DNA of 64,000 nucleotides from Pirellula sp. GTDB lineage: Bacteria; Planctomycetota; Planctomycetia; Pirellulales; PNKZ01. Position numbers and translations under genes: made by a program. Location: contig PNKZ01000017.1 of NCBI GenBank assembly GCA_013822735.1, forward strand, positions 62,001 to 126,000. Reading direction: 5' to 3'. The notes under the pieces were generated by a model that did not search any database, was not told the origin of the DNA, and saw only the letters and a program-made list of their open reading frames with translations. Positions 21,103 through 51,888 of this stretch are shown one piece after another; the first letter of the stretch is position 1, and each line of letters opens with the position of its first letter.

Positions 21103-21166
21103 CGAGCCCGCGGCCTACGCCTTCGGAAGCGCAAGGAAAATCGCTGACGACTAACGTAGTAAGCGC

Positions 21167-21221
21167 TTTCCTCATCAAAAGTACCGAAGGAGGGAGTCGA
21201 TCCCACACGCCCTTGCGGACA
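21167..21221 (-). pseudogene. Duplicated 3' end of tRNA-Leu with downstream flank (putative attachment-site copy)
   Basis: Bases 21182-21221 match the 3' 40 bases of tRNA-Leu(CAA) at 25686-25725 with two differences, covering the variable arm end, T arm and 3' acceptor strand. Homology continues for about 15 bases past the tRNA 3' end (CTTTC.TCAT...AAG). The anticodon half is absent. It has the same orientation as the intact gene, which is the geometry left by integration into a tRNA 3' end. The remainder of 21103-21643 holds no gene I can support. Confidence 0.8.
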
Positions 21222-21643
21222 ATTTCGACATAACGTGCAGTAAGAAAAAGGTGTGCGAATCAGAACACACCGGAGCAGGACGTATCCGTTTGAGGAGCGG
21301 GCTCGGTGTTACCCATCGGATAACCGCAGCTCACCAATCAGATCGCATGCAACGCCGCTTCGTCCGGCCGTGAGCCCCGAATGAATGTCCAGAAACTTCC
21401 GAGACTCACGCCGTCCGTATCGCTCACGTTTGTCGGAGCAGGTTTAGCTTTGCAGTAACGATGCGTCGGGTTCGCCGAGTCGGAGGGCGACATCTTGCAG
21501 GACGTTTGGGTCCTCGGAGCGGGCCAGTTCCGTGAGTACAATGCAAATTAGGTGGAGATGCAGCTTCGCAGCTCCTCCAACGCATGGACCGAAACCCGCG
21601 ACGCGAACGCCGCCCGACCGAATCTCCCCTCTTCTGCATATTC

Positions 21644-24067
21644 ATGCCTTCCAAGACTCTTTTCCCAACCTCAGTGATACTCCTGTTTTTGTTCGTACCT
21701 GCGTGGTCGGCAACGGAGTTCAAAAAGCCCTTCCTTCAATCGAACTGTATCGATTGCCACAACAGCGAAACGCGCGAAGGGGGCCTGAATCTGGATGAAC
21801 TCGCGTTTGAGCCGACGCGGCGGGACAATGCGACGACTTGGGAGCATGTCTTCGACCGTGTGGCCAAAGGCGAGATGCCTCCGAAAAACGAGCCTCGGCC
21901 TGCCGCAGAGGAGAAGGCTGCTTTCTTGAGGGAACTTGCGCACCGTCTGCGGACAGCGTCTCTTTCGGAGCAGCAAAAGGAAGGACGCGGCCCGGTGCGC
22001 CGATTGACGCGCACGGAGTATGAGAACACCGTCGCCGACCTGCTCCACATCAAGTGTGATCTCAAAGGGTTTTTTCCTGAGGACGGGGTCACGGCCGGCT
22101 TTGATAAAGTGGGCGAAGGCCTCACGCTCTCCGCCACGCATTTCGCGCGTTATCAAGAGGCCGCAGAAACGGCGCTCGCGGATGCGATCTTCCATGCGGG
22201 CAGCCAGCGATATTCACAGGACGGCGTTTCCTTCTTTAAACGAAACGAAAAGACGTTCGCCGACTACGGAAACTGGAAGGAGGACGACAGCTTCGTTCTG
22301 ACCTCGCGGATGTTCTATCCCTACACGGTCATCATGGGACCTTGGGCGCCGTTGAGCGGCAGGTATCGCATCCGCATTACTGCGCAGGCGCGAAACAACG
22401 GCGGCAAGCCCATGCCCATCGCCATCGGCGTTCACAATCGTCACGCCTCGAAGCCGGACGCACCGGAACTTCTCGATTGGCGGGATCTCTCGGAAACGGA
22501 GATGCGCACCGTCACGATGGAAGCGGATTTGCAGCGCGAGGAGCAAATCAACGTCTTCGGTCCGACGCTCCATCACCGCGACGACGTCATCCCGCTCAGC
22601 CGCAAAGGCGAGCGCTGGACGAAACAAGCGATCGTCATCCGGAAGATAGAAATCGAAGGGCCCCTCAAAAGCGACGGCGGCGTCGATGCATGGCCGTCGC
22701 AGGGCTATCGTGAATTGTTCGATCAATTGGAGCAACGTTCGCTTTCGAACATCACCGGCGTGCCGGCGAAGAAGGACGCGCCGAATCCCGCATTCCCGGT
22801 GTCCGCACAGCCTAAGGCAGACGCGGAGCGACTCATCCGGCGTTTTTTGCCGAAGGCGTTTCGGCGACCGGTGCCGGAGGAAATCGCTGCGCCCTATGTC
22901 GCGCGTGTGCTCAAGGCGTTGGATGAGGGCGTTTATTTCCATCAAGCCATGCTGGACGGCTACAAGGCGATTCTCTGTTCGCCCCACTTTCTGCTGCATG
23001 AAGAAACACCGGGCGCGCTTGATCGCCATGCCTTGGCCAATCGATTGGCATACTTCCTCTGGAACGGCCCGCCGGATGAGGAGCTCCTGCAGTGCGATCT
23101 CTCGCAGGCCGGCGTACGCCATGCCCAAGTCGAACGCATGCTGCGCGATCCCAGGTCCGCACGCTTTGAGAAGTCGTTCGTAGATCAATGGCTCGATTTG
23201 CAAAAGATCGACGCCACCTCGCCGGACAGCGCATTGTATCCGGAGTTCGACGCCGCACTGCAACTCTCCGCCGTGCGCGAGACGCAGCTCTTCTTCCATG
23301 AACTCCTCACCGAGAATCGGAGCCTGCTGGAAGGCGTTCAGTCCGACTGGACTTATCTCAACGAGCCCCTTGGCTGGCTCTACGGATTACCCGAGGTCCA
23401 CGGCCATGAGCTGCGCAAGGTTCGACTGCCGGCCGGTAGTCATCGCGGCGGCTTCCTGACGCAGGCGAGCATTCTCAAAGTCACTGCCGACGGCGCGAAG
23501 ACCTCGCCCATTTTGCGCGGTAACTGGATCAACGAAAAAATTCTCGGCATCCACCCGCCTGCTCCGCCGAGCGACGTGGCGAAGATCGAGCCCGACATTC
23601 GCGGCGCCACCACCATCCGCGCACAGCTCGCCAAACATCGCGACACGCCCGCGTGCATGAGCTGCCACACGGTGATCGATCCGCCGGGCTTTGCGCTGGA
23701 GACCTTCGACGTCATCGGCGGCCGGCGAGATTTTTATCGCGTGCCGACGAGCACCGGCCAGGTTATCGAAATCAAACCGAGCAAGAAAAGAGTTCATCGC
23801 GGACCGGCCGTCGAAGCCGGTTACACGATGCCCGACGGACGCGCCTTTGCAAACGTGGATGAGTATAAAACCATGCTGCTGGAGGACAAAGACGGCCTCG
23901 CCCGAGCCCTGGCCGACAAACTACTCACTTATGCCACCGGGGCGCGCGTGCAGTTCGCCGACCGCGATGATGTGGCCGCGATCGTGAAGTCGCTTCATAC
24001 TGACAACTACGGCCTCCGCAGCCTCATTCATCACATCGTCGATAGCCGACCATTTCTAAACAAGTAA
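21644..24067 (+). CDS. Planctomycete cytochrome protein with DUF1587/1592/1588/1585 domains
   Basis: The 807-residue protein starts at ATG 21644 with a signal peptide (LFPTSVILLFLFVPAWSA). An N-terminal cytochrome-like motif CIDCH lies in QSNCIDCHNSETREGG, followed by the DUF1587 segment RRLTRTEYENTVADLL, DUF1592 with LANRLAYFLWNGPPDEELL, DUF1588 with the second heme-type motif CMSCH in DTPACMSCHTVIDPPGFALE, and DUF1585 at the C terminus. Proteins of this kind are exported and paired with a DUF1552 protein, as here 12 bases downstream. Their biochemical role is not established. It lies within the tRNA-bounded segment. Confidence 0.95.
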   Translation: MPSKTLFPTSVILLFLFVPAWSATEFKKPFLQSNCIDCHNSETREGGLNLDELAFEPTRRDNATTWEHVFDRVAKGEMPPKNEPRPAAEEKAAFLRELAHRLRTASLSEQQKEGRGPVRRLTRTEYENTVADLLHIKCDLKGFFPEDGVTAGFDKVGEGLTLSATHFARYQEAAETALADAIFHAGSQRYSQDGVSFFKRNEKTFADYGNWKEDDSFVLTSRMFYPYTVIMGPWAPLSGRYRIRITAQARNNGGKPMPIAIGVHNRHASKPDAPELLDWRDLSETEMRTVTMEADLQREEQINVFGPTLHHRDDVIPLSRKGERWTKQAIVIRKIEIEGPLKSDGGVDAWPSQGYRELFDQLEQRSLSNITGVPAKKDAPNPAFPVSAQPKADAERLIRRFLPKAFRRPVPEEIAAPYVARVLKALDEGVYFHQAMLDGYKAILCSPHFLLHEETPGALDRHALANRLAYFLWNGPPDEELLQCDLSQAGVRHAQVERMLRDPRSARFEKSFVDQWLDLQKIDATSPDSALYPEFDAALQLSAVRETQLFFHELLTENRSLLEGVQSDWTYLNEPLGWLYGLPEVHGHELRKVRLPAGSHRGGFLTQASILKVTADGAKTSPILRGNWINEKILGIHPPAPPSDVAKIEPDIRGATTIRAQLAKHRDTPACMSCHTVIDPPGFALETFDVIGGRRDFYRVPTSTGQVIEIKPSKKRVHRGPAVEAGYTMPDGRAFANVDEYKTMLLEDKDGLARALADKLLTYATGARVQFADRDDVAAIVKSLHTDNYGLRSLIHHIVDSRPFLNK

Positions 24068-24079
24068 CCTGCTTCACCC

Positions 24080-25357
24080 ATGCACATCAGCCTCCGCCAA
24101 CCCATCGCCCGCCGTCACTTTCTCCGAGCCGGCGCCGTCAGCCTCGCGTTGCCCGCCCTGAACGCCATGCTTCCCCGCGGCCTCGGTGCGGAGCCGGCGC
24201 CGTCACCGAAGCGCCTGCTGCTCATCGGTCGCAACCTCGGCCTGCATGCGCCTTTCTTATTTCCCAAGACCGCCGGTTTGAAATACGAAAGCACGCGCTA
24301 CCTACGGCACTTGGAGGAGCACCGCGGCAAGTTCACGCTGTTCTCCGGCGTCTCGCACATCAAGTACAACAACCATCACAGCGAAGCAGGGCTCTTCACG
24401 GGCGTGAACTGGGACCGCATCAAAGAGCCCGCCAAAGAGCACCACAACAGCATCTCGCTCGATCAATATGCCGCCGAGCGGATTAAAGCGGACACGCGCT
24501 ATCGCAACCTCGTCATCGGCCCTCCCGTGCAATGGAAATTCTCGTGGAACGAGAAAGGCGTGCCCGTGCCGAGCGAGCGCAGTCCCAGCAAAGTTTTCAA
24601 GCAGCTATTTCTCGACGGCAGCCGGGATGAAATCGCTTCCGAAACGCATCGGCTCCAAACCGGGCGCAGCATCCTCGACCAAGTCGGTGATGAGGCGAAG
24701 GCCTTCGGCAAGAAGCTCGGACCCGAAGATCGTGAGCGGCTGGAACTGATGTTCAGTTCCATTCGCGAAACGGAGCAAAACCTCCTACGCTCTGAAGCCT
24801 GGGTGAATAGACCCAAACCCACCGTCGCCTATTCCGCTCCGAAAGCCGATCCGAACAACGAAGAGATCATCGCCCGCGAGACGCTCTGGTTCGACATCAC
24901 GCGACTCGCCTTCCAAACCGATTCCACCCGCGTCATTCTTCTCACCATGGGTGACGCCGGACGCCCCAAGCTCGAAGGCTTAAATCTCGGTCACCACGAC
25001 GCCTCGCATCACGGCAAGGATGAAACCAAGATCGAACAATTAGCCCTGATCGAGGAAACCGAGCTGAAGCAACTCAACCGCTTCCTCACCACCATGCAGC
25101 AAGCCAAGGAAGGTGATTGCAGCCTCTTCGACAGCACGTCGATTCTCAACGTCAGCAATCTCAGCAACGCTTCCGCTCACACTTGCGAGAATCTCCCGAT
25201 CATCCTCGCCGGCGGCGGCTACAAGCATCAAGGTCATGTCGTCAAAGACCTCAAAAACAACACCCCGCTGAGCAATCTGTTCGTCCGCATGCTCCAGCAA
25301 ACCGGCATCGAGACACAGCAATTCGGAGCAAATGACGGCGTGCTCAGCGACGTGTGA
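24080..25357 (+). CDS. DUF1552 protein, Tat-exported
   Basis: The 425-residue protein begins with a twin-arginine signal (IARRHFLRAGAVSLALPAL). It carries the DUF1552 pattern, including PKRLLLIGRNLGLHAPF near the start, HHSEAGLFTGV, and ILAGGGYKHQGHV near the C terminus. It belongs to the family that always accompanies DUF1592/DUF1588 proteins in planctomycetes and verrucomicrobia, probably as a translationally linked partner. No catalytic residues are established for the family. The 25358-25635 stretch after it shows no further gene. Confidence 0.94.
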   Translation: MHISLRQPIARRHFLRAGAVSLALPALNAMLPRGLGAEPAPSPKRLLLIGRNLGLHAPFLFPKTAGLKYESTRYLRHLEEHRGKFTLFSGVSHIKYNNHHSEAGLFTGVNWDRIKEPAKEHHNSISLDQYAAERIKADTRYRNLVIGPPVQWKFSWNEKGVPVPSERSPSKVFKQLFLDGSRDEIASETHRLQTGRSILDQVGDEAKAFGKKLGPEDRERLELMFSSIRETEQNLLRSEAWVNRPKPTVAYSAPKADPNNEEIIARETLWFDITRLAFQTDSTRVILLTMGDAGRPKLEGLNLGHHDASHHGKDETKIEQLALIEETELKQLNRFLTTMQQAKEGDCSLFDSTSILNVSNLSNASAHTCENLPIILAGGGYKHQGHVVKDLKNNTPLSNLFVRMLQQTGIETQQFGANDGVLSDV

Positions 25358-25635
25358 ACATGGGGTGATTCGTCGTCGTCGCCGAAGTCGAGAGGTAAAT
25401 CCACTCGCTGAGCTGAAGATCGTCCGAGGAAGTGAAGAGCTCCGACCCGCTGGAGATGTGCGAAACGAGGTGAGCCGGCCAGATCGAGATCTCTCGACGG
25501 TTCACGCGGGGGCGTTACGGACAAGTCGGCGGACGGCCGATCGCTCCGGAGTCGTCGAGCTCCTCCGAGAGACAACGCAACTTAGACAAAAAGTGGGGAG
25601 CTTTGAGGGAGATCGCTCCCGCAACCCGCCCGAAA

Positions 25636-25673
25636 ACGAAAAAGGACTTGCGACCCCGAGTCGCAAGTCCTTT
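25636..25673 (-). terminator. Rho-independent terminator of tRNA-Leu
   Basis: A perfect 14-bp stem (25641-25654 with 25660-25673, 5-base loop) is followed on the minus strand by CTTTTTCGTTTT. It begins 13 bases after the mature tRNA 3' end. Confidence 0.85.
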
Positions 25674-25685
25674 CGTCATTGGAAG

Positions 25686-25768
25686 TACCGAAGGTGGGAG
25701 TCGAACCCACACGCCCTTGCGGACACTGGATTTTGAATCCAGCGCGTCTGCCATTCCGCCACTCCGGC
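25686..25768 (-). tRNA. tRNA-Leu, anticodon CAA
   Basis: Read on the minus strand the 83 bases fold as a class II tRNA. The acceptor strand GCCGGAG pairs with CTTCGGT, the D arm is TGGCGGAATGGCAGACGC, and the anticodon stem CTGGA/TCCAG encloses the loop TTCAAAA, giving anticodon CAA (reads UUG, Leu). The variable arm is TGTCCGCAAGGGCG, and the T arm has the usual GGTTCGACTCC loop. The 3' CCA is not encoded. A copy of its 3' half is found at 21182-21221. Confidence 0.96.
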
Positions 25769-44553: not shown

Positions 44554-44684
44554 CACCACGGAGTCACGGAGAACACGGAGGAAAGACGCCGCGACTCGCT
44601 TGCGTCGATTTGCAATTTGCAATTCTCGATTTGCAATTTGCAATCTACTCGTCCCCTTCTCCGTGCTCTCCGTGCCTCCGTGGT
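44554..44684. repeat. Dispersed palindromic element, family D, copy 1, with TTGCAATT repeats
   Basis: The left arm CACCACGGAGTCACGGAG (44554-44571, continuing to 44582) and the right arm 44660-44684 are complementary, as in copy 2 at 51037-51127. The loop contains four TTTGCAATTTGCAAT-type units at 44607-44645. It lies between convergent symporter and exporter genes. Confidence 0.8.
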
Positions 44685-44700
44685 AAGCATCGGATCCGTG

Positions 44701-45417
44701 CTACACGGAAAACATCTTCACCGCGGCCACGATGAGCACCACGGCCAGCACGCGGCGCAACCCCTTGTTGCCGAGTCGTCGGCTGCCGAGTTCCGAACCG
44801 ATGATGCCCCCCGCGCCTGCGGCGAGCGCCCACCAGACGATCTCGCCGGGCAGCGAAGGCCGCTTGAGCATGACGCCGATCAGGCCGGAGATCGAGTTCA
44901 CCAAGATAAAGGCCGACGATGTGCCTGCCGCGCGCCGCGCATCGGCCCAATTTAAAAAAATCATCAGCGGCGTAAGAAAGATGCCGCCGCCGGTTCCGGT
45001 GAGTCCCGAGAGCAATCCCACGGCCGCGCCGACCAAGACCCCGACCCACCAGCGCGGCGGCTGCATCGGCACCCCTTCGTGCGGCGTCGGGTCGTAGAGC
45101 AGCTTGGCGGCGGAAACGAGCAGCACCGCGCCGACGACGCGTTTGTAGACGAGCGACGAGAGCGTCAAAGAACCGCCGACAAACGCCAATGGGATGCTGC
45201 CCAGCGCGAACGGAATGAAAAGTCGGGCACGAAAACAATCGGCCCGAGCGTAGCGCACCGTGGCGATCGAAGCGACGAGAATATTCAGCACAAGCGACGT
45301 CGGCCGCATGACCGCCGGCTCGACGCCCATGAAGCCCATCGCCGCCAAATAGCCCGACGCCCCGGCATGCCCTACGGTCGAGTAGAGCAGTGCGGCGAGA
45401 AAAACGAGTACGGCCAT
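44701..45417 (-). CDS. TauE/SafE-family membrane transporter
   Basis: The 238-residue protein starts at ATG 45417; a GTG 48 bases upstream would add 16 residues. It shows the TSUP (TauE/SafE) two-repeat arrangement: STVGHAGASGYLAAMGFMGV near the start and GLLSGLTGTGGGIFLTPLMI with the conserved Gly-rich motif in the second half. About seven hydrophobic segments are seen. The family exports sulfite, sulfoacetate or other organosulfur anions; substrate not deducible here. Confidence 0.9.
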   Translation of the reverse strand: MAVLVFLAALLYSTVGHAGASGYLAAMGFMGVEPAVMRPTSLVLNILVASIATVRYARADCFRARLFIPFALGSIPLAFVGGSLTLSSLVYKRVVGAVLLVSAAKLLYDPTPHEGVPMQPPRWWVGVLVGAAVGLLSGLTGTGGGIFLTPLMIFLNWADARRAAGTSSAFILVNSISGLIGVMLKRPSLPGEIVWWALAAGAGGIIGSELGSRRLGNKGLRRVLAVVLIVAAVKMFSV

Positions 45418-45508
45418 ACCGCAAATATATAGAGCGGCGCGGGAAGCCGCGAAAGCCCCCGTCACCCTACCCTCCTCGTCTCCCGGTCTCTCCGTCTCGT
45501 GTCTTCTT

Positions 45509-51036: not shown

Positions 51037-51127
51037 CACCACGGAGACACGGAGTTCACGGAGTCGGGAACGATTGCGGAAAATTTGCAATCAAATCTCT
51101 CTCCGTGTTCTCCGTGCCTCTGTGGTG
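51037..51127. repeat. Dispersed palindromic element, family D, copy 2
   Basis: CACCACGGAGACACGGAGTT (51037-51056) and the complementary CTCCGTGTTCTCCGTGCCTC (51101-51120) frame a loop with AAATTTGCAATCAAAT. The same arms and TTGCAA word occur at 44554-44684. It is in the 128-base gap between the acyl carrier gene and the first dehydratase. Confidence 0.8.
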
Positions 51128-51136
51128 CAATACAAA

Positions 51137-51523
51137 CTACTTGGGCAGCTTCGTTTCGACGAAACGCACCATGTCTTGCACGGTCAGCAACGTGCCGAAA
51201 TCCTTGACGTTCGGATTCTTGGCGAAGTTGTCGAGGTTCACAAACGGCATCCGCTTCCGCAGTTCGGCGATGCCCGTCTCGGTCACCTTGCCGTTGGCCA
51301 CGTAGTCGGTGCTGGTGAGCACGTCTTCCGGGAACAATTCGCCGCGGCTGATCTTGATGTCGAAGGCCTTTTCCAGGCGAAACACGATGTCGAGGAAGTC
51401 GATCGATTCGGCTCCCAGATCTCCGACCAGCGTGGCTTCGGGCGAGACTTCGTCTTCATCGACGCCCAATGCTTCACACAACACGCTTTGAACTTTTTCG
51501 AAGACCTCGTTCTGCGACGGCAT
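51137..51523 (-). CDS. Acyl carrier protein with internal insertion
   Basis: The 128-residue protein starts at ATG 51523 (MPSQNEVFEKVQSVLCEALGV). The phosphopantetheine Ser lies in GDLGAESIDFLDIVFRLEKAF, with ESI in place of the usual DSL. A standard ACP is about 78 residues; this one has about 40 extra between helix II (ISRGELFPEDVL) and the terminal helix (LLTVQDMVRFVETKL), containing VTETGIAELRKRMPF. It sits between the two dehydratases. It probably carries a dedicated acyl chain rather than serving general synthesis. Confidence 0.9.
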   Translation of the reverse strand: MPSQNEVFEKVQSVLCEALGVDEDEVSPEATLVGDLGAESIDFLDIVFRLEKAFDIKISRGELFPEDVLTSTDYVANGKVTETGIAELRKRMPFVNLDNFAKNPNVKDFGTLLTVQDMVRFVETKLPK

Positions 51524-51888
51524 AACACATTTCTCCAGATAGAGCCGGACCGTGGGCCTAGTGAGCGGATGCGTCGGCGAGCGAACAAGCGAACCGTCGC
51601 CGCGCCGCACAGGTCGCCCCATGGCGACCATGCACGCGCAAGCAAACTATCGGATCGACGAGCCCTCGCCGCGGCCGCTTATCGGACCGTACGGCGTTCC
51701 CAAAAAACGAAACAAAAACACTTCCGCGCACTGCGTCGAAACGCGCACCGAAGCGAGATCGCAGCTGCGGCAGGCCGTCTACCCAACGGCCCGCCCGCGA
51801 TCAAACCTCAACGCGCTTTCGCTACCCATTCACAACGCGCGGCACTGACAATACTCAAACTCTGACAAACTCAAACTATGTCTGTGAT
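51524..51888. other. Intergenic region within the acyl-chain cluster
   Basis: About 365 bases between the ACP and the second dehydratase, on the same strand. No gene, tRNA or clear repeat was recognised. A leader or promoter for the ACP might be here, but no boxes stand out. Confidence 0.4.

Follow-up and report, generated by a model that had tools for sequence, protein, structure and literature searches.

Does the 4.5-kb segment that lies between a tRNA-Leu(CAA) gene and a direct copy of that gene's 3' end record the integration of a mobile element, as the initial annotation proposed? The DNA analyzed (the window, 64,000 nucleotides) corresponds to bases 62001 to 126000 of contig C17 of a 6.88-Mb genome, assembled in 38 contigs and 99% complete.

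A displaced copy of the tRNA-Leu(CAA) 3' end

ARAGORN identified a single tRNA in the window, an intact tRNA-Leu(CAA) on the minus strand at 25685 to 25768, which is 100% identical to the tRNA-Leu of G001 and G006 and is the presumed integration target. The gene had been annotated as intact with a start at 25686, one base off. A repeat finder returned a 66-nt direct repeat (21156 to 21221 versus 25660 to 25725) with 85% identity, the tRNA part of which (21181 to 21221 versus 25685 to 25725, minus strand) comprises the 3'-terminal 41 bases of the tRNA gene, 39 of them identical. The recurrence of the tRNA 3' end and flank at 21167 to 21221 in the same orientation, as annotated, was thereby confirmed. 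With the displaced copy excluded, the best other 41-mer in the window matched at 24 of 41 positions, and in the whole 6.88 Mb the left copy matched only itself and tRNA-Leu (E = 1.4e-14).

The displaced tRNA part carries two substitutions and, together with the weakened hairpin beside it (see below), seems to be free of selection and decaying as an old 3' half. It begins at tRNA position 44 and most copies found in relatives begin at positions 28 to 32, so erosion of the displaced copy must be assumed. The heptamer TCGAAAT that precedes it resembles the anticodon loop TCAAAAT and might be a remnant of that loop after a short deletion, a likeness that is suggestive only.

The outer flank matches the tRNA-terminator junction of a close relative

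Each copy is accompanied by a terminator on the minus strand: a perfect hairpin (T2, 25641 to 25684) now lies behind the intact tRNA gene, and a decayed hairpin (T1, 21129 to 21180) behind the displaced copy. In G001, a genome of the same genus, the identical tRNA-Leu is directly followed by its terminator (L036). The left copy with its outer flank (21129 to 21221) aligned with this tRNA-terminator junction at 85% identity over 94 nt, and the right-hand window tRNA aligned with the same locus at 94% over 109 nt. In G006, a T1-type terminator directly follows tRNA-Leu, with no segment between them. Given the alignment with the G001 junction, 21129 to 21180 is most simply read as the original downstream flank of the tRNA gene, now 4.5 kb away, and G001 approximates the empty site, because the decayed T1 matches the terminator directly after its intact tRNA-Leu.

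The initial annotation had named conservation of the 4.5-kb arrangement in all relatives as the result that would refute an island. This was not the case, since the segment was missing from the site in G001, where the tRNA is joined directly to the outer flank, and in G006; the far flank was non-syntenic. Past the terminator, synteny was kept in none of the relatives examined. Serine acetyltransferase, which had been proposed to adjoin tRNA-Leu and the GlmU-like gene in genomes without the segment, was rejected as an empty-site anchor because none of the family members examined keeps it close to tRNA-Leu. That adjacency was not found, and because the serine acetyltransferase side was non-syntenic in all relatives examined, no empty site spanning both flanks was observed.

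The terminators also bear on an alternative that we regard as unlikely, in which tRNA-Leu, or its 3' half with the terminator, was first duplicated in tandem at this locus. The gene pair would then have been inserted between the copies by some separate process, such as homologous recombination or transformation, and the outer copy of the tRNA would have degenerated. Predicted hairpin energies were −16.4 kcal/mol for T1, −27.3 kcal/mol for the G001 terminator, and −26.6 kcal/mol for T2. Similarity scores to the G001 terminator were 28.5 for T1 (shuffle mean, 4) and 17.5 for T2 (shuffle mean, 4.4), and T1 and T2, with a score of 9.5, were less alike than either was to G001. By these scores, the decaying outer terminator is nearer to G001 than the functional inner one, the reverse of what local duplication predicts. 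Duplication would also call for two independent events at one spot, and the displaced copy comprises the 3' half alone, just as it does in the G003, G049, and G061 elements that carry an integrase. It is favored by the score of T2 against G001, which places both terminators in one class, by the lack of an integrase in the segment, and by the occurrence in G040 of two complete copies of the tRNA gene.

Under integration into the tRNA gene, T2 was probably brought by the element. The terminator argument is only moderate, however, because tRNA-Lys in G002 is likewise followed by a T1-like terminator and T2 is similar to terminators found after tRNA-Leu in relatives; T1-like terminators are thus a type that the genus uses behind tRNA genes. 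The terminator stem AAAGNACTTRCGRC was slightly enriched in the genome (6 matches versus 1 for the control). In G002, the tRNA-Lys(CTT) locus (L194, 1501 to 1638) has an integrase-like open reading frame (ORF) (289 to 1530) directly downstream and a terminator like that of G001 tRNA-Leu.

tRNA-Leu(CAA) is a recurrent integrase target in relatives

In G003, of the same genus, an ORF with a Phage_integrase domain (PF00589, E = 3.7e-13) abuts the 3' end of tRNA-Leu(CAA) (L034), and on another contig (L095) a displaced 56-nt 3' copy of G003's own tRNA variant is followed by a T1-like terminator. In G004, of the same family, an integrase starts about 190 nt from tRNA-Leu. Integrase-bearing elements related by their site are thus found both in the genus and in the family. 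G061 (L091) holds tRNA-Leu, an integrase, and a displaced 55-nt copy within 6.6 kb, and in G049 (L092) the tRNA and the displaced copy are separated by a 17-kb element that carries a D5_N gene, an integrase-like gene, and a region weakly matching a terminase. Displaced copies were found in at least eight relatives (G003, G014, G015, G019, G033, G049, G061, and G075). Among the loci of the G003-type family of planctomycete tyrosine integrases (L111 to L132), the 3' end of the integrase points toward a tRNA gene in 20 of 22, the tRNAs being those for nine amino acids (Leu, Met, Arg, Asp, Lys, Glu, Ser, Thr, and Cys); the integrase and the tRNA are convergent in all 20.

Two further tRNA-Leu(CAA) loci were recorded. 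That of G002 (L033, 15535 to 15619) has a genus-like 5' half and many differing bases in its 3' half, as if the latter had been swapped by an integration. In G040 (L105, 4604 to 6067), the two complete tRNA-Leu(CAA) genes lie 1.3 kb apart.

Within the segment, the absence of an integrase, as annotated, held up: no integrase ORF was found between the repeats. Neither the left margin (21222 to 21643) nor the right margin (25358 to 25640, the position of the integrase in relatives) showed recognizable homology, and in a BLAST search of both noncoding margins against the ORFs of all loci examined, integrases included, no match was better than E = 0.1. The left margin had no significant match elsewhere in the genome.

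A further alternative, which we hold to be quite improbable, is that the segment is a resident mobilizable cassette, strictly a cis-mobilizable element, which has lacked an integrase from the start and is moved in trans by the integrases of other elements at the same site. G015 offers a parallel: on contig C45 (L093, 2117 to 6929), two displaced copies lie 4.7 kb apart with a chemotaxis-receptor gene and no integrase between them, and an integrase lies beside tRNA-Leu on contig C178. The genome studied here has 12 places elsewhere that score above the integrase cut-off, and one integrase lies beside tRNA-Glu. The genome yielded no integrase that targets tRNA-Leu(CAA), however, and the tRNA-adjacent ones in the loci examined faced other tRNAs. 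The mutated state of the displaced copy also argues against such a cassette, and the one in G015 is the only other candidate. A wider proposal, that planctomycete tRNA-Leu(CAA) sites host small integrase-less cassettes, which resident tyrosine integrases would move in trans and which would carry operons between Planctomycetota and Verrucomicrobiota, with the 4.5-kb segment and the 4.7-kb chemotaxis-receptor cassette as putative members, seems similarly doubtful.

The segment carries a gene pair of verrucomicrobial origin

As annotated, the segment carries a DUF1592/DUF1588 gene and a DUF1552 gene, and Pfam confirmed both. The first (21644 to 24067, plus strand; first start codon of the ORF at 21584) encodes a PSCyt1/DUF1587/DUF1595/DUF1592/DUF1588/DUF1585 protein, and the second (24080 to 25357, plus strand) encodes a DUF1552 (HXXSHH) protein with a twin-arginine-like N terminus. 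The DUF1592 protein was 79 to 82% identical to those of three verrucomicrobial loci (L141 to L143), and its best match in a 294-genome sample of the phylum was 47%. The DUF1552 protein was 85 to 88% identical to those of the same three Verrucomicrobiota metagenome-assembled genomes (two Chthoniobacter type and one labelled Akkermansia) and 68 to 69% identical to others, versus at most 56% in its own planctomycete family; the GlmU-like neighbor, for comparison, was 76 to 78% identical in G002 and G003. The window protein grouped in the DUF1552 tree with L141 to L143 and then with L144 and L145, all Verrucomicrobiota (bootstrap, 99 to 100), and the DUF1592 tree agreed with this placement. DNA homology to the verrucomicrobial loci (about 80%) spanned 21698 to 25357 on the plus strand, and none was found beyond the two genes. 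By domain set and gene adjacency, the same pair is present in L141 to L143. Judged by its sequence, the pair is foreign and of verrucomicrobial origin, and its nesting inside a verrucomicrobial clade gives the direction of transfer, from Verrucomicrobiota to planctomycete. In L141 and L143, two more genes, one of them for an ECF sigma factor, lie ahead of the pair, unlike here, where the pair stands alone; only part of the verrucomicrobial cluster is therefore present.

Codon use and GC content did not set the segment apart from the window. In the comparison of 21644 to 25357 with its neighbors that the initial annotation had suggested, the pair ranked 11 and 39 among 41 window ORFs, which fits donor-like loci with 59 to 63% GC. 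The most deviant codon use was that of two candidate genes elsewhere in the window (44648 to 45424 and 51074 to 51862; GC3, 0.51 and 0.57). A DUF1592/DUF1552 pair 7 kb from tRNA-Leu in G002 was considered as an ortholog and rejected (35 to 36% identity). No relatives of the cargo were found in viral contigs, and plasmids gave distant matches only (26 to 28% among the matches listed).

That the neighborhood is ordinary and vertically inherited, with a repeat due to chance or to assembly, is highly improbable, since the unexceptional codon ranks of the pair and the abundance of DUF1552 genes in the planctomycete family are set against the far greater identity of the DUF1552 protein to Verrucomicrobiota, a tRNA repeat far beyond chance expectation, and a repeat that would be too short and too diverged to cause a misassembly alone.

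A probable decayed, CIME-like island at tRNA-Leu(CAA)

We consider it likely that 21181 to 25725 is the footprint of a decayed tRNA-Leu island, similar to a CIME and carrying a cross-phylum operon, from which the integrase has been lost. An element with a tyrosine recombinase would have integrated into the 3' half of tRNA-Leu(CAA), and the incoming DNA would have carried a 3' half and a terminator of its own to take the place of the old ones, so that the tRNA stayed intact. The original 3' half and its terminator would thereby have been pushed to the far end, where they would now be decaying. The element would have brought, or later gained, the two-gene operon for the DUF1592-type cytochrome protein and the DUF1552 protein. 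The element would then have lost its integrase gene and its other parts, leaving an immobile CIME-like remnant. The tRNA repeat, the G001 junction that lacks the segment, the repeated use of this site by integrases in relatives, and the foreign origin of the pair are demonstrated; we infer the action of an integrase here and which one it was, the order of these events, including the arrival of the pair with the element and the later integrase deletion, and the function of the cargo. The absence of an integrase or a relic of one, the short displaced copy, the moderate terminator argument, and the non-syntenic far side count against this history. The island at the tRNA-Leu 3' end proposed initially is nevertheless largely supported, by the G001 site without the segment, the foreign genes, and the G003 footprint with its integrase.

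CIMEs are cis-mobilizable or decayed integrative elements. The segment resembles them in its two putative att-like flanking sites, in the lack of recombination or transfer genes, and in a site that is used by integrase-bearing elements of close relatives; mobility is putative, and the genome that holds the segment yielded no integrase specific to tRNA-Leu. With the tRNA-gene islands of Islander (PMC4383910) it shares a target tRNA regenerated at one end, a displaced 3' fragment in direct orientation at the opposite end, foreign cargo between the ends, and a site used by tyrosine integrases in relatives. Unlike those islands, it has neither an integrase ORF nor a relic of one, is just 4.5 kb long, and has a displaced fragment that is shortened and mutated. 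Because it is island-like but lacks the integrase that Islander demands, we classify it as a decayed island or CIME-like remnant.

Planctomycete-specific cytochrome (PSCyt/PSD) gene pairs are abundant in freshwater Verrucomicrobia (PMC5615132). They share the domain families of the present pair and the placement of a PSCyt gene beside a gene of another uncharacterized family; unlike them, the pair described here is in a planctomycete chromosome. In freshwater Verrucomicrobia, carbohydrate-binding modules and gene context have led to the suggestion that this domain class takes part in carbohydrate metabolism, and the authors stated that the function was not known at all (PMC5615132).

Each component of the locus is already of a known kind, and with its cross-phylum cargo it clearly illustrates familiar processes, in which transfer between phyla of the PVC group is tied to a physical entry point. 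The locus suggests that horizontal movement, in this case from Verrucomicrobiota to a planctomycete, affects at least part of the large population of "planctomycete-specific" cytochrome/DUF1552 pairs, and that such pairs therefore need not be ancestral paralogs. In this order, integrases make frequent use of tRNA-Leu(CAA), and of tRNA genes in general, as targets, and the G003-type integrase family is a candidate for studying the switching of target tRNAs within one family.
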